Shown here: piece after piece, positions 3,001-31,300 of the stretch
Layout of the letters: each line of letters begins with the position of its first letter
Position numbering within the stretch: position 1 is the first letter of the stretch
Origin: a virus
DNA length: 36,382 nt
Direction: 5' to 3' (one strand)
Virus record (IMG/VR): IMGVR_UViG_3300032287_001282
Span: 1 to 36,382 of that record
Notes under the pieces: generated by a model
The model's database searches: none
What the model was told of the DNA's origin: nothing
Seen by the model: only the letters and a program-made list of their open reading frames with translations
Made by a program: the position numbers and the translations under genes

Positions 3001-6000
3001 GTTTTTATAAACATTAACCTGAGTAATATCTGACAAATTAGCAGTTGCTAAATAATCTCTCGGGCGGTAACCAATCAAACTAAAACTTAACAGGTCTGCG
3101 TCATTTTCTAAGTTAGCATTGTTTACACTATAGTATAATGTACTTTCGTATGAACGAGTTTGGCTATTAGGTAATAAGCCCTTTTGTATTTCGGCGTAAG
3201 GAACTTCTTTCCAATCAAGCTCATCAAATACTTGTTTAGCTTGTACAATATTCAATGCACTCCAGTATCTGTTTTTGTAAAGTACAATTGCACCCTTTGT
3301 ATATTTGAATTCACTACTCCATTGTTGAATATTATCTTGGTTAAGAATAAATCCGGCAGCATCTACTGTACCATTCCATTCTGCTGTTTTTGCACCGCGA
3401 ACAAATATACGATTTTGTCTCAAGCCAGTAATCAAATTATAAATGATATCATCAAACAATGTTACATTGTTGAATACGATGCCATGTTCAAAATTACTAA
3501 TGTTAAACTGACCATAACTAATTGCATCACCTTGATTCAAAGGTTGTACAGTGAATGCTGTATTTTCACGCACAATAGATAAATCAGTTGATTGTATTGG
3601 ATATAAATTTTGATTCAATACAAAGTTTTGTTGACGCAATGTCAATGGTTGTACGATGTAACTGTCACGGTTGATAGCTAATGCAGTGGCAGCCGGGTTT
3701 ATAGTTGTAATACTACCAACTTCCCAGCCCATTTGTGACCAATACATGTATTCAGCAACCATTTGTGGCCATGTAACCGGTATAGCATTTTCAATTTGAT
3801 CAAATACTAAACCTTGTGTTTCTAAATATTTTCCATAACAATTTAAGAACTGTGCTACTTCTTGCACAGAATAGAATTCAGTACCATATGGTACTAAAAC
3901 AGTTCTATCATAAAATTCAGTTGCTAGTTTAACTGTTAAATTTTCTACTGTAATAGTTTCATTAATTCCGTTATTTTTAGGAACTAATATTTTAAAATAA
4001 GCATTGGTTTGTGAATTGCCATATACTTTGAATCCGTTATCAGATATTTGAATTACAACACCAGAGTATACAATTCTATCAAATGGTTGGTTATCATATA
4101 ATAAAACTTGATAACTTTCATCAGGAATTAACAATGAACTGTTATTACTATTTGCTGAACTCTTTTCAACATAAAATTGTAATAAATTTTTATCACTGTA
4201 ACCAGCAACACGATATACCAAACGAACATCTAAGTTGTCTAGTAGTTTAGTGATGTCGGTTGTAGCATCGACACCAACTTGTTTCTCAAAGTCTACAATC
4301 CAATTAATGTAACTTGTTGCAGGAGTACCATCTCCATATATTGGAATGTTTTTAACGTTTAGATGACTTCTGTTATTTACTAAGAACTGATTGAATTCTA
4401 CGTTATATTTGTAATGATCAATATCAACTGCTAGGTTATAGAATTCTGCAGGGCGTGTTAATGCAAGTATTCGCATTAAGTCAAATGCCCATGTACTACT
4501 TCTGCGATATGCGAATTCTGCAGGACCTACATCTCCTACTTTCCAGTCACGGTTAAATGTACTTTGATTATAATTACCTAATATAGATATAAACGGTGAT
4601 ACCAAATCACCATTACTGTCTACTGGAATTACACTAAGTAAACCATCACGTATGTATTTAGGTATCACTACAGGATTGCCGTTATTCCAGTCAACGCCGG
4701 CTGCCATGTCACCCCATAATACCAAGTTATCACTTGTATATGGAGCCGCACCGTAACGGCTTGTCCACCATGTAGGTTCATTTTCATAACCAATCATCTC
4801 CCACGGTGTAGCGTCAGGCGTAGAGGTATCATAATAATACAAATACAATCCTCTAAAATAACCTTGCTCAATTGCATTTCCGTTTATTTTATTACCATTG
4901 TTATCATAGTTGTATGAGAATTGATTATTCTTATTATAAAACTGTCTCTTATAATTAATTCTGTTTTCACCTACCCAATTTAAGAAAGATTCAGAATAGA
5001 TTTGTAAAAATTCATCGTAGGAGTAATCAGTTGTTCTAAAGAATCCAGGAAGAACTTCAGTCAGTTCAACAGGAATAACGTTACTTAATTTTAAATTGTT
5101 GTATACACGTGTTTCATATTCTAATAATACTTGATCTCTGAAGTCATCTAATGTGTTAGTTTCAGGGTTATAATTCCCATACAATTTATTAAATGAACCA
5201 TCATGACCTACAATAAAATATGTAGGTTGAGTATATGCTGTATCCAATGTTACCGATGGGATAGTTGCAGGATACAAACCTAATTTTGTAGGAGTATTTG
5301 GAACATAACTTCCATACGTTTGATTATATTCATTAATTACAATTTGATCGTTTGGTAATAAGTCGGTTGTTACTATTACTGATGGAGCTGTTGTGCTTAC
5401 TGTATAATCAACTCCGGTAATCAATTGAGTTGTTACTCCATCACGTATTAAGTATACCAATACACTGTAATAATTAGAAGTAGTGAAAGTATAAACTCTA
5501 CTTAGTGGATAGATACTAACATCAAGTGAATTTGCAAAGCTGTAAGTGTTACTGATGTATGCTGACTTGGAAGGCAGCATATCACTCCAAAAGAATGGTT
5601 CACTATCTGTTTTATTTGCAGTTATTTGATCCATTGCATCATCAAGTATCTGAGCCGGCGGTAATATGCTTGTATAGTTTGTATTATTAACAGTATCAAC
5701 TAGTAAAGTTTTAAATGTAATATATTGCCTGCTATTATACAATAAAGCATTGAATAGGTTATGACTTTGTTTGCGTAAGAATGTACCCGGTAATGCTAAT
5801 GATGAACTGTTCTGAATAATTCTATTGCCCCATGGCACCATATTACCTAAGTCACGATAGTTATTAGGTCCAAAAATTTCACCTGTAGTATTTGGGTTGT
5901 TGTAGAAAATACTCTGATATTGACCACGAATGTCACCGATGTTAACTATAGTAACATCTTCATTGAATGGATTATTACTTAAGTTAATTGGTATGCCATA

Positions 6001-26178: not shown

Positions 26179-26739
26179 ATGCCAAGTCCACAGAAAAACA
26201 AAGGTTCCGGTTTTGAGCGAGAAATCGCTAAATATCTCTCAGAGAAGTACAATGAATCATTCATTCGTGCTCCCGGTTCAGGTGCTTATGTGGGAGGGAA
26301 GAATCAAACTCGCAAAGAAGTTTTACATGAAGGTCAGATCCGCTCATTCAAGGGCGATGTTGTACCCGGTCAATCATTTAAAAAAATGAATATCGAATGT
26401 AAATTTTATGCAGACTTCCCGTTTCATCTATTACTTACAGGGGAATGTAAAGTTATAGATGGTTGGCTAGACCAACTCATGGACGTAGCTGATCCAGATG
26501 ACATAAACATATTGTTTATGAAGTTTAACCGTAAGGGTCGTTATGTTTGCGTTCAAAGCAAACTAACATGGGTTGCAGACAACTTTGTTTATTACACATC
26601 ACAAAAACAAGGAGACTGGACAATTTTCGAATTTGATAGTTTCTTTCATTTCAACACCGAGTTATTAAAAACATATTCAAGCACAATAGACACCAAGTCA
26701 ACACAAGCTGAAAATTCCCTATTAACAATCAACATTTAA
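26179..26739 (+). CDS. PD-(D/E)XK nuclease, Holliday-junction-resolvase-like
   Basis: 186 aa. The N-terminus (NKGSGFEREIAKYL, E13) and RAPGSGAY (30-37) followed by GDVV (D60) and NIECKFY (E73, K75) reproduce the active-site layout of archaeal-type Hjc and related PD-(D/E)XK nucleases: an early Glu, a conserved Arg-x-x-x-Ser-Gly, then D and E-x-K. It is therefore probably a metal-dependent nuclease that cuts branched DNA. In T4 the resolvase gene 49 (an unrelated HNH-type enzyme) lies between genes 55 and 47/46, and here this gene follows 55-47-46, which suggests non-orthologous replacement. The C-terminal 50 residues are Ser/Thr-rich. A restriction-like nuclease of other function is the main alternative. 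The start is 34 nt after the gp46 stop with no clear ribosome site. Confidence 0.7.
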   Translation: MPSPQKNKGSGFEREIAKYLSEKYNESFIRAPGSGAYVGGKNQTRKEVLHEGQIRSFKGDVVPGQSFKKMNIECKFYADFPFHLLLTGECKVIDGWLDQLMDVADPDDINILFMKFNRKGRYVCVQSKLTWVADNFVYYTSQKQGDWTIFEFDSFFHFNTELLKTYSSTIDTKSTQAENSLLTINI

Positions 26740-27064
26740 GTATTTTAAAATTAGTTGTCTCCGTTGGGAGACCTCCTTGAAGAAGCCTGAAAGATGGCGG
26801 ATGGATCTGGAGCAAGCATGAATAGCGATATTCATGGGTATACCGAGAGGGCAATCGGCAAAGCGAACCCTCAACAAGTCTATTGATATTTTATCTTGAT
26901 TTAATAGAATGTGCGTTGCTGAAGAATTGTTTAAGTACAATAGCTTCACTACAATCCCGTAATAACTTTACAGAGCAACCGGTAGCAGTTAGTGTCAGAA
27001 ATAGGCGACTAACTGGGGAAAAGATAACACTGGATGACGGTCATGGCAAACATACCTTTCCCAT

Positions 27065-27088
27065 TGGTAGTGCAAATTTGCACTACCA
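27065..27088. repeat. Perfect 24-nt palindrome
   Basis: TGGTAGTGCAAA followed by its exact reverse complement TTTGCACTACCA. It could be a stem-loop in either transcript or a binding site for a dimeric protein. There is no T run beside it, so it is not a simple terminator. Confidence 0.8.
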
Positions 27089-27153
27089 TGGCTTCTAATC
27101 GGCAATATATCCCATTAACAATTAGAATAAAAACAATAGATTACCGTAAGAAA

Positions 27154-27196
27154 TAAGAACGAACGAAGTGAGTTCTTAGATGAACGAAGTTCATCT
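27154..27196. terminator. Tandem hairpins, possible bidirectional terminator
   Basis: TAAGAAC...GTTCTTA (27154-27178) is followed at once by AGATGAAC-GAA-GTTCATCT (27178-27196). Both contain GAACGAAG. They sit between converging transcripts of the nuclease gene and the gp26 region. The T runs are short (TTT on plus, TTATTT on minus), so they may equally be stems of the candidate RNA. Confidence 0.35.
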
Positions 27197-27241
27197 TTAA
27201 TAGAGAAACCCGATGTGATAAATGAATAATTACGGATTTGA

Positions 27242-27418
27242 TTAGAAGAACGGCATTTGCGTTTTCTTAGTAGTTTCCAAATTACTTTCAATCAATTTGT
27301 TTATCATTGATCTTTCCTCATAGGACATGTTAAGTACATCGGTGTATTGTACACCTCCCCTCATGTACCAAGTTAGTGTAAGCGCAGACTTTTTAATTTC
27401 TGCACTTTCCTTGTCCAT
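27242..27418 (-). CDS. Small tail-assembly (gp51-like?) protein, probably a -1 frameshift extension of gp26
   Basis: The frame is open from the gp26 slippery site (27478) to the stop at 27242. The first ATG gives 58 aa (MDKESAEIKKSAL start), but there is no ribosome site for it and no other usual start codon upstream. The 18 residues before the ATG (RLRLLHLNPEGVQKLIEN) look like normal helical coding sequence. The conserved-looking core is LTLTWYMRGGVQYTDVLNMS, then YEERSMINKLIE and a TTKKTQMPFF C-terminus, a pattern I recall from small proteins beside gp26 in T4-like marine phages. Read through the frameshift it adds 76 aa to gp26, giving a 350-aa product. The gp51 label is by position only. 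Confidence 0.65.
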   Translation of the reverse strand: MDKESAEIKKSALTLTWYMRGGVQYTDVLNMSYEERSMINKLIESNLETTKKTQMPFF

Positions 27419-27429
27419 ATTTTCAATCA

Positions 27430-27478
27430 GCTTTTGAACACCCTCAGGGTTTAGGTGTAAAAGCCTTAACCGAAAAAA
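27430..27478 (-). promoter_or_regulatory. Programmed -1 ribosomal frameshift signal
   Basis: Minus strand: slippery heptamer T TTT TTC (27478-27472) in the gp26 reading phase (GAT TTT TTC GGT TAA), one sense codon before the stop. It is followed by a 7-nt spacer GGTTAAG (27471-27465) and a stem of GCTTTTACACC (27464-27454) with GGTGT (2742 to 27438 side, i.e. 27442-27438) and AAAAGC (27435-27430), with a 2-nt bulge and an 11-nt loop. The -1 frame has a TGA just before the heptamer and then stays open for 76 codons. Confidence 0.7.
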
Positions 27479-28293
27479 TCAGTTACATTAATAACAATTG
27501 ATTGTTCATAATCGTGTTGGCAATGAACACATTTAATTTTCTGAGGTTTGATTTGTGTGCTATCTTTTAGTTTAGCATGGTAATCACGTAATTCTATGTA
27601 TGCATTCTTATCACAGTTTTGTAAGAAATCTAAAATAAATTCAGTTTCACTTACTGTGATATTTGGTGTTCTTACATATTCAATAGTTTGTGCTAAGACA
27701 GCCATAGTAACTTCTGTAATTTTTACAATCGCTTCTTGTGTCTTTTTGGTACGTTCTTCTTCTGGTAATGCATCCATAGTAGAAAACATTTTTTGAATTT
27801 CAAACTGTGCCATAGATGCTTGATTCATTTCTCTGTAAGTCAATGGTCTAAATTTAATGAACAAATCACCTGTTTGAAGTTCTTTAGTGTAGTCGCCGGG
27901 TTTCATTGTTTGAAGTATTCCAATTAAATTAATTGCATACGTAGCGACTTCCTTACAGCTAGGGCATTCACTTTCAATTTCCATATCATTACCTTGGGCA
28001 GCCGATCTGATAGCTATTAAAATAGCGTCTAAATCAGTACTAGGTATTGACCAAGGGTCTCTGATATCAGGGACACAGCTTTTTATAATTTCTACAATAG
28101 CAGAACCGTTAAACAATGCGTCTGGTGTTTTGCTAGTAATTTCATCAATTGCAGTCATGGGATAAATTGGTAATTCCCCTGTTTCTGTTTTATTCAGTGC
28201 TCCGGCCGGATATCCAATTCCTCCGCTAGGTAATTTCAAATAGATTGATGGTCTACGAAAATATTGTTTTAACGGGTTGTTTGCTAATGACAT
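27466..28293 (-). CDS. 26: gp26-like baseplate hub/tail assembly protein with zinc ribbon
   Basis: 275 aa (T4 gp26 is 208). The N-terminus (NPLKQYFRRPSIYLKLPSGG) and the ELPIYPMTAIDEITSKTPDA segment are typical of the T4 gp26-like baseplate family. Two CxxC pairs, ECPSCKE at about residue 110 and KCVHCQHDY near residue 258, would bind zinc. Proteins of this family act in hub assembly, and their position beside the tape-measure gene resembles that of tail-assembly chaperones. The C-terminus ends VTDFFG at a slippery TTTTTTC, where a -1 shift would append a further 76 residues. AAAGGAA precedes the ATG. The gene is divergent from the tape measure and has a late box and a terminator-like hairpin in its leader. 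Confidence 0.75.
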   Translation of the reverse strand: MSLANNPLKQYFRRPSIYLKLPSGGIGYPAGALNKTETGELPIYPMTAIDEITSKTPDALFNGSAIVEIIKSCVPDIRDPWSIPSTDLDAILIAIRSAAQGNDMEIESECPSCKEVATYAINLIGILQTMKPGDYTKELQTGDLFIKFRPLTYREMNQASMAQFEIQKMFSTMDALPEEERTKKTQEAIVKITEVTMAVLAQTIEYVRTPNITVSETEFILDFLQNCDKNAYIELRDYHAKLKDSTQIKPQKIKCVHCQHDYEQSIVINVTDFFG

Positions 28294-28307
28294 GTTATTC
28301 CTTTGAT

Positions 28308-28326
28308 AAAAAACGGGCTTTCGCCC
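28308..28326 (-). terminator. Terminator-like hairpin in the gp26 leader
   Basis: On the minus strand GGGC-GAAA-GCCC, then G and six T (28326 down to 28308): a compact GNRA-capped stem with a T6 tract, a textbook intrinsic terminator. It lies between the minus-strand late box and the gp26 ribosome site, with no minus-strand gene upstream, so it would act as an attenuator or as a stop for antisense read-through. Confidence 0.65.
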
Positions 28327-28330
28327 AATA

Positions 28331-28351
28331 CTAAATACTAATGATATTTAG
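28331..28351. promoter_or_regulatory. Divergent late promoters in an inverted repeat
   Basis: CTAAATA on the plus strand (28331-28337) and CTAAATA on the minus strand (28351-28345) form the arms of an inverted repeat with a 7-nt centre. The plus copy faces the tape measure (56 nt to its ATG), the minus copy faces gp26 (51 nt to its ATG). The same heptamer occurs before the portal and gp67-like genes. Confidence 0.55.
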
Positions 28352-28392
28352 TGTCTAAAAAACACCAAAAAAATTAATGGAAGCCCAATAAT

Positions 28393-31300
28393 ATGACACC
28401 CGAAGAACAAGAAAAAAGTGAAGCACTCTATAGATCGGTCAACGAACAGTTAGAGCGCCAAAATAACATTTTGGCTGCACAATTTGAACTTGCTAAGAAA
28501 ACGGCTGAAGCTCAGGGCATTAATATATCTAGCCTTAACAAATCCAAAACAGCTTATGATGGACTGTATGGCTCTACTACTAAACAGACTGCGGCTGGAG
28601 AAGCTAATGCACATGGTCTTGCAGTAATGAATCAAGCCATGGCCCAATTTGATAAGGCCGCAATATCTGGAACAGCCGCAACATTTGCCTTTGGTAAAGC
28701 ATTACTAAGCACCGAAAAGAGTTTTGCAAAATACAATGATGTATTGAAAAATGCAGGCGATGCCGCATGGGAAGCTAGTAAAAACTTTGGCTTACTTGGA
28801 ATGGCAACCGGTGCACTAATTAAAGGTGTCACTATGGCTGCTCAAGCGGCCACAAAACAAGCAGATAACACATTAAAAGCTACCGATGATTTAAGTAAGA
28901 TGGGTAGCGCAGGTGCATTTAGTGCTAAAGAAGTATTAAAGATGGGTCACGATGCTGGACTTACATCAAAGAATTTAGAAGTATTCACTAAAGCTACAAA
29001 AACATTAGGTACTGCAACAATAAGTTTGGGTAGTACTGCCGGAGAAGGTATTGCAGAATTTGCTAAAATGACTGCTGTTAGTAAAGAACAGCGAATGGCA
29101 TTTCAACGTTTAGGCATTAGTCAGGAAGAATTAATACAAAGTCAAGCAGATTTTGTTTCCATGCAAAAAGCATCCGGCGTACAGATTACTGCACGAATGA
29201 AGCAAGATGAAGGTTTGAAAAAGGCTTCATTAGAATACACTAAGAACTTATTAGAATTAGCGGCAATAACCGGTGAAGATGTTGAAGGTGCTAAAAAATT
29301 AAAACTAGAGGCTGAAACTGAACTTGAGACAAAAATTCAAACCAACATGATGCAACAGCGTATTAATGCGTTGCAAAAAGAAGGTACTCCTCAGGCAGAA
29401 GCTCAAGCAGAATTACTGAAAAAGGAATTAGAATCAAGACGTGGAATGCTTGAAGTTGCCACTAGTACAAAAGATGCAGAGATTAAATCAGCAACAGCAT
29501 CATTTTTAGCGACTGGCGCGATTACTGAGCAGTCAGTGGTGCTAAAACGATTAATTCCAAACATTGAAGAATTTGGTGAAAGAGTTAAAAGAGGCGAGAA
29601 CGTTGCTGTTGATTTTGCAAAAGCATTAGCTGATGGTGTTGATGCAAATGTAAGAAATGTTGGCACTGCTGGTATGCTAGATAAAGCAGTTGCAAAAACA
29701 TTTGGTATGACTGACCAAATGCTTACTTATAGCGCACAAAAAAGAGATGTAGACTTAAAAGCTGCCAAAGATGCTGCCGGCAAACTTATAGGTGCACCAG
29801 AAAAAGGTGAGACTGGTGACAAGACTGCTAAAGATCCAGCACAAATTGCTAGAAATGAATTAACTGAACTTGAAATTAAAGCACAAGTAGAGTTGGATAA
29901 ATTATTAGCAACTGTTAATCCTTTAATAACCGGGTTCGATAAAACCACTACAGCCGCTACGTTATTAGCCGGCGCAGCCGGATTAGCCGCAATTGCTTTA
30001 ACTGCTATGGCAGGTTTAAGTGCATTAAAAGACTTAAAAGGATTAGCAAGTAAAGGTGGTCCGGCTGGTAAAATGCCAGGTGGCGGTGCACCGACAGCTC
30101 CGGCTCCTACATCACCGACTAAGCCTTCTGGTATGTCGGTTGATGAAAAAGCCAAGTATGATAACTTACGTAAAGAAGGTGTACCAGCCGCCGAAGCAAA
30201 ACGACAAGCCGGCGGATTTAGTAGTTTAGTAAGTGCAGAAAATAAAATAACTCCACCAAAACCAGTTACACCACCAATACCAGTAGGTGCCGCAACTGAA
30301 ACATTAGCCAAAGAAGCAGGTGCTTTAGGTAAAATGGGAGGGGCATTGAGTACAGCTAGTAAATTTGCAGGACCGGCCGCAGGTGCAGTATCAGTATTAA
30401 CCGGTGGATACACCGCAATTCAAGGTTCCAAAGCCGTAGATGAAAAAGTTAAAAAAGGTGAGATTACTAAAGACGAAGGTACTGTTCAAAAATCTGAAGC
30501 TGTTGGCAAAGGTGCAGGTGGTGCTGTTGTCGGCTTAGGTGGCGCCGCACTAGGTGCCGCAATTGGTACAATGATATTCCCGGTAGTAGGTACTGCAATT
30601 GGAGCCGCATTTGGTGGATGGTTAGGCTCTAAGGGCGGTGAAATGGTAGGTGAGAATGTAGGTACTATTGTAGGGAAATCTATTATTGAAAAACCAAAAG
30701 TTGATGCTAGTGGTAGAGCTACAGCCGCAACTGATCCAAGAGTGGTAGGTACACAACAAAATCCAGCTAATGTAAAAACTACAGAACCAACAAGTACTAA
30801 ACCAGCAACAGCTACAAATGATCCAAGATTGAAAAATGCCGGCGCAGAATCTCCTGAGAATGTGGCTAAGGGTATAGCTGACATGGCAAAAGAAAATGCA
30901 ATGAGAGCCAGTGTATCTAATGCTGAATCTTTAAAATCAAATAAAGAATTTGTATCACTGGAAATTAATATTACTGCATTGAATAAGACGTTAATGTCAA
31001 CTAATACAGCATTAGCCAACTTAACAGCAACAATCAGCACTAATAAACCAACGACATTTAAAACATCTGAATCAAAACCAATATTTGACACAAAACCAGT
31101 ACAGGTTAAATTAACAACTGAACCAAAACCAGTTGACACTATACCAAAATTAGTTGACGCTACACCTAAACCAATTGACAACACAATTAAACCAGCACCA
31201 GTTAAACCAATGACTGATATTAATGACATGGGTGCAGCCGCAATTTATTCAAAATTAGTAGGTTCTATACAACTAGCAACAGCAAAACCAACTAATACTA

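Follow-up and report, generated by a model that had tools for sequence, protein, structure and literature searches.

The DNA analysed here (hereafter the window) is the 36,382-base IMG/VR virus record IMGVR_UViG_3300032287_001282, positions 1-36,382. Between the stop codon of a Holliday junction resolvase gene and p58, a convergent gene of 58 amino acids, the window almost certainly carries a conserved structured RNA with a core of about 360 nucleotides (nt). This RNA is absent from RNA catalogues and remotely related to larger phage RNAs that had been catalogued only in part, as Polynucleobacter-1 (RF01718). What appeared as a single odd gap is a conserved RNA class present in at least hundreds of environmental phage genomes.

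Evidence for a conserved structured RNA

A search with the resolvase gave 292 relatives, of which 80 loci were kept, and in about 75 of these first 80 the gap DNA was 70-97% identical. With additional sequences from two pattern scans and a second protein search (locus counts based on the pattern scans are lower bounds throughout), the RNA was matched by nhmmer in 355 of 357 sequences, the two exceptions being Salicola phage SCTP-2 and a contig ending inside the resolvase gene. Some loci are pieces of one contig, and the number of distinct full-length RNA sequences is 143. In the following, the window RNA and its close relatives are referred to as the W family, and a set of more distant phage RNAs that have a 3' core in common with one another as the B family.

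The 143 sequences were aligned with MAFFT from sequence alone, and 366 columns were examined by a G-test with average product correction. The two null models placed substitutions on a FastTree tree, and the stricter one also preserved the number of changes per column. About 20 column pairs exceeded or nearly exceeded all null values. The deduced model contains 92 pairs in 15 helices, including two pseudoknots. When it was applied to 54 diverse sequences, 94.4% of the cells were standard pairs, and double changes were found in 849 cells distributed over 69 pairs, versus 245 cells in shuffled sequences; helices slid by 1-3 columns were only 31-44% paired, with 89-139 double-changed cells. Selection has acted on the fold at the RNA level, since the structure was kept while the letters changed. 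The folding energy of the gap itself was low on both strands (minimum free energy z-scores against shuffles: -4.1 for the + and -4.4 for the - strand). As G-U cells outnumber A-C cells about four to one (221 vs 56), the RNA was assigned to the + strand, and this assignment is very likely correct.

A protein-coding explanation was rejected. The 71-codon open reading frame (ORF) at 26883-27098 is intact in only one of the 54 diverse sequences, the window itself, and is frameshifted or stopped in the other 53; the differences are not concentrated at third codon positions. Searches of Rfam detected no family at the gathering score and no credible match up to E=10, and four weak matches at E 0.7-10 were regarded as chance. 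An earlier note, which had been made from the letters of the window, described 26745-27250 as an unclassified large structured RNA without a credible gene and proposed an Rfam scan and a covariation analysis in related phages. Both descriptions hold: no ORF is conserved, covariation in the relatives is strong, and the lack of any matching Rfam family supports the view that the RNA is unclassified. Two outcomes that the note had named as refuting, a lack of covariation and a coding signal, did not occur. The extent needs revision, as the core runs from 26749 to about 27106 and the last nine positions (27242-27250) are the stop end of p58.

In the literature, we found no description of an RNA of the W type. 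Blastn searches with the RNA of the window and of two other loci (L357 and L510) identified no copies in isolated phages, and no copies were found in the bacterial genomes reached via the resolvase. Among isolates, SCTP-2 carries the closest resolvase, but it lacks a comparable gap and any match to the RNA.

Architecture of the RNA

The helices, boxes and neighbouring genes are listed in Table 1. The 3' strands of P4 and P7 are continuous, and this nested pair encloses P5, P6 and P8. The stems proposed in the earlier note (at least eight) are present within the 15-helix model and supported by covariation, its nested long-range helices correspond to P4 and P7, its GNRA-capped stem is P3 (the loop is a GNRA tetraloop in 98 of 138 distinct relatives), and its single pseudoknot is present but is one of two. 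Confidence is lower for P8 and for the ends of P1 and P11, which are 78-95% paired. The tail (27107-27241) is less conserved than the core, except for two small hairpins, which are possibly bidirectional terminators; a terminator scan did not pick them up.

Table 1. Features of the RNA and of its genomic neighbourhood in the window
Feature	Positions	Strand	Basis
Structured RNA core, about 360 nt	26749-27106	+	143 distinct sequences, 15 helices
P1 hairpin (26757-62/26767-72)	26757-26772	+	Covariation 26761:26768, 26762:26767
P2 (26773-76/26809-12) with inner P2a (26785-87/26796-98), conserved CUCCUUGA ... GAUCUGGAG	26773-26812	+	Pairing; homology to bridge RNAs by model R1
P3 hairpin, GNRA tetraloop (GCGA)	26817-26836	+	Double-sided changes in all 7 pairs
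P4 long-range helix UACCG/CGGUA (26841-45/26980-84)	26841-26984	+	26841:26984 U-A/C-G/A-U
P5 hairpin with inner P5a (26855-57/26864-66)	26847-26872	+	Cells 100% paired; double changes in 4/5 pairs
P6 hairpin, loop is the 5' strand of PK1	26874-26912	+	26885:26902, top covariation of the set
PK1 pseudoknot (26891-97/27021-27)	26891-27027	+	26891:27027, 26893:27025, 26895:27023
P7 long-range helix GUUGC/GCAAC (26915-20/26974-79), encloses P8 (26921-26947)	26915-26979	+	26918:26976, 26919:26975
PK2 pseudoknot (26955-58/27016-19)	26955-27019	+	26955:27019 U-A/C-G/G-C/A-U
P10 hairpin	26987-27014	+	Double changes in 9/10 pairs
Box 1 (KC..GGCAA)	27041-27049	+	Identity coupling with box 2
P11 hairpin with a nearly invariant inner stem of 8 bp and a variable loop	27061-27091	+	Alignment, pairing
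Box 2 (KCGGCAA)	27099-27105	+	Identity coupling with box 1
Two small hairpins in the tail, next to p58	27157-27195		Sequence; compensatory changes by eye
PDDEXK_15/RusA-like Holliday junction resolvase, upstream of the RNA	26179-26739	+	Pfam 2.7e-24, PHROG 244
p58, convergent 58-aa gene, conserved	27242-27418	-	Adjoins the RNA in relatives; no Pfam/PHROG match
T4-like baseplate hub gene	27466-28293	-	PF12322 7e-18

Three unpaired stretches of the core (ACUACA, UUACAG and AACCGG) are invariant. Such stretches within a compact pseudoknotted core would suit a ribozyme or an intron-like catalytic RNA, which is the least probable of the readings considered here: the RNA interrupts no gene, neither Rfam nor ARAGORN gave a match to group I or group II introns, other ribozymes, RNase P or transfer-messenger RNA, and the order of strands in group I introns and RNase P differs from that of the window RNA.

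Identical boxes on either side of the last hairpin

A further, new feature of the RNA is an identity coupling between two short unpaired boxes that flank P11. In the W family, base 27041 is identical to base 27099 in 125 of 126 RNAs (G/G in 86, T/T in 39, and another combination in 1), and this pair of columns is the strongest coupling of the family that is not of the Watson-Crick type. Rare joint changes in the GGCAA that follows the diagnostic base were also noticed by eye. The B family has the same arrangement, with two 7-nt boxes beside the last hairpin (CUC-box ... UCU-box) that are identical in six or seven letters in 76 of 77 RNAs. At least 11 box types are used across these phages, such as AGAUGAU, GGAUGAU, AGAUAAU, GGAUGAA, ACCGAAC and AGCUGAG, and the B-family column pairs 210:262, 214:266 and 216:268 co-vary beyond all null values, the coupled columns changing as identities (AA/GG, GG/AA, TT/AA/GG). 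The spacing between the boxes varies from 47 to 62 nt, so the two sites need no fixed distance.

These data suggest, as the simplest account of the coupling, a single partner that would read both boxes. The reverse complement of the box, sought in the B family as an internal or nearby partner, occurred at no fixed position; an excess of complements at -120 (G-U allowed) was discarded as an apparent match to a constant GUUGUUU and not covariation. The boxes also bear on an explanation at the DNA level, in which the gap would be a replication origin or a recombination site and the boxes would be direct repeats. The inner stem of P11 is palindromic and nearly invariant, and gp46, gp47 and resolvase genes are found nearby, as such an element might have; the excess of G-U over A-C cells and the compensatory changes across the core, pseudoknots included, which act on single-stranded RNA, make this explanation improbable. 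To our knowledge, a function has been established for few of the large RNAs of phages. Boxes that change identically are seldom seen, and through them the question of function becomes directly testable.

Wider family and Polynucleobacter-1

Starting from the resolvases of more distant phages, we reached loci where a gap of 400-1170 nt occupies the same place. A motif, GGTACMGSMCAACCGCC, was common to five distant gap loci, and scanning with this motif and a profile of the five loci yielded about 130 matches, 77 of which were strong and constitute the B family. Of the 82 distant loci scanned, 54 have p58 and/or the hub gene downstream on the opposite strand; 52 of these 54 belong to the B family of 77, whose remaining loci may in part end at a contig edge.

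When 20 B-family loci were scanned, 15 had RF01718 (141 nt) immediately 5' of the shared core, and L357 has it too. Polynucleobacter-1 was reported from Burkholderiales and from fresh water or estuary (Weinberg et al., 2010; PMC2864571). The P1-P3 domain of the W family was turned into a covariance model (R1), and a search of 551 kb of distant loci with it gave only seven matches at E<=1, the best at 2e-6, 5e-5 and 4e-3 and the other four, individually weak, at 0.12-0.84. All seven sit exactly 5' of the B core, and we refer to these RNAs, which occupy the same locus, as bridge RNAs. Therefore, the window RNA and the bridge RNAs have a 5' domain in common, and the 3' core of the bridge RNAs also occurs in RF01718 carriers. 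As the 5' domain of these carriers, RF01718 represents just part of a longer phage RNA. The orphan Polynucleobacter-1 can thus be recast as a single domain within an RNA whose genomic position is constant.

RF01718 carriers resemble the window RNA in their locus and in a 3' core with the element order of the W family, including the hairpin between identical boxes. The difference is at the 5' side, where the window RNA has another domain (P1-P3), and the part modelled in RF01718 does not extend into the shared core. RF01718 matched nothing in the window at the gathering score and nothing in the RNA region at E<=10. The order common to both families is a P5-like hairpin, a P6-like hairpin (its loop pairs with a downstream strand), GUUG, CAACCG, a pseudoknot strand, a box, a hairpin and a box. 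A covariance model of P4-P7 of the W family (R2) gave no match in the B family at E<=1, and the putative homology of W and B over this part rests only on the order of elements. Judged by these comparisons, the window RNA belongs, as a divergent branch, to a superfamily of phage RNAs but not to RF01718 itself.

A motif resembling the B core (CCGTTG..GGTACAGGCCAACCGCC) was also noticed in two bacterial assemblies, at about 5085-5156 of a Marinobacter confluentis chromosome contig (L537) and at about 3233-3321 of a Colwellia metagenome-assembled genome (L538). Both sites are weak profile matches with no resolvase, p58 or hub nearby, and may represent a prophage or a related bacterial RNA. In another locus (L360:4500-5100), a long AT-rich array of AGGCTAA/TAGGCA-like words lies between the resolvase gene and the RNA.

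Possible function

The best explanation overall is, in our opinion, a noncoding RNA of the + strand with a bivalent docking role, although we would put this at slightly short of an even chance. The segment 26749-27106 would fold independently, and the RNA would probably end near the small hairpins before p58. P4 and P7 may form one long-range stack around P5, P6 and P8, with the two pseudoknots, and perhaps a contact of the GNRA loop, locking a compact core that would display the two identical single-stranded boxes, one on each side of P11. As a discrete transcript, the RNA might then work in trans, serving as a bivalent adaptor or scaffold whose rigid core holds the same partner twice. A phage-encoded RNA-binding protein is favoured over a host molecule as this partner, given that the two boxes differ from phage to phage in step with each other. 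Relatives appear to exchange the 5' domain, to which another partner may bind. Such a bivalent mechanism in trans is proposed tentatively. In its broadest form, our proposal is of an unrecognised class of large RNA that is a core part of a broad T4-like jumbo phage group, with a pseudoknotted scaffold that bears identical, co-evolving boxes, with 5' domains that can replace one another (Polynucleobacter-1 being one of them), and with bivalent docking of a phage-encoded partner; this is likewise tentative.

Several points weigh against this proposal. The covariation statistics are our own re-implementation and not R-scape, and the W-type RNA has been found in no isolate. Moreover, the boxes could be bound singly, contact each other or the rest of the RNA in its tertiary structure, or function as DNA.

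Comparison with known large RNAs raises a further alternative. GOLLD and ROOL are about 600-800 nt long and often lie near tRNA islands, whereas the window RNA, which is likewise large, pseudoknotted and phage-borne, has about 360 nt, no nearby tRNA (ARAGORN found none in the window) and a fixed syntenic locus. OLE is also an ornate large RNA with a conserved fold but is bacterial. The Rfam models of GOLLD, ROOL and OLE gave no match in the window. The likeness to GOLLD and ROOL drawn in the earlier note is limited to general size and phage setting. An RNA-only multimer of the GOLLD/ROOL type, either a cage or another oligomer, would be consistent with a large ornate pseudoknotted phage RNA whose 5' domain varies while the 3' part is conserved, an arrangement described for GOLLD (PMC12286853), and identical boxes could make repeating contacts. 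Considering the smaller size, the absence of a tRNA and the lack of resemblance to the three models, we regard a multimer as improbable, if slightly less so than a DNA-level element.

Genomic context

The genes of the window are a T4-like myovirus set, including a late sigma factor, homologues of gp47 and gp46, the resolvase, baseplate hub, tape measure and portal. By hub and portal, the nearest isolates are jumbo phages (Phosso, 469 kb; Atu_ph07, 490 kb; PA5oct/Paride, 287 kb) with 31-54% identity, and related IMG/VR contigs reach 524 kb. Among 275 W loci, 235 have the resolvase upstream and p58 downstream, 39 leave the contig on one side and only one has no detectable p58. Always at the same place and in single copy, the W RNA is a fixture of one locus and not a mobile element. 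The phage RNA loci are not 5' untranslated regions (UTRs), because the next gene is convergent.

The main rival to a trans-acting RNA is a cis-acting structure of the 3' UTR or convergent junction, which would stabilise or terminate the gp47-gp46-resolvase message and insulate it from the hub operon. We consider it unlikely, yet it has more in its favour than the other alternatives: the site lies between convergent operons, small hairpins stand beside p58, and the RNA has no clear promoter of its own except a consensus-like match at 26722-26751. Terminators need neither a core with two pseudoknots, a GNRA loop nor co-evolving boxes, however, and three relatives (L027, L041 and L065) have several hundred extra bases between the RNA and p58. 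In addition, the resolvase gene of Sinorhizobium phage Phosso and of the Pseudomonas phage PA5oct group is on the opposite strand and points away from the comparable stretch, which corresponds to the window RNA by position.

That stretch, between resolvase and baseplate hub, is ORF-poor and about 900 nt long in both phages (L362:4780-5700 in Phosso, L364:5840-6740 in the PA5oct group). It gave no profile match, and its relation to the window RNA is putative. On 20 shuffles, the fold z-score was -6.2 for Phosso and -1.75 for PA5oct. The PA5oct stretch gives three blastn places in each genome of the group, so part of it seems to be repeated elsewhere in the genome.

p58 has no family match in Pfam or PHROG and may encode a small baseplate protein or chaperone that has escaped recognition; it adjoins the RNA even in very distant phages. 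A TAAATA-type motif recurs upstream of structural genes of the window (28293-28393, 32653, 35443, 12664 and 20871) and is probably the late promoter of this phage; directly before the RNA, no clear late-promoter motif of the T4 type is present.
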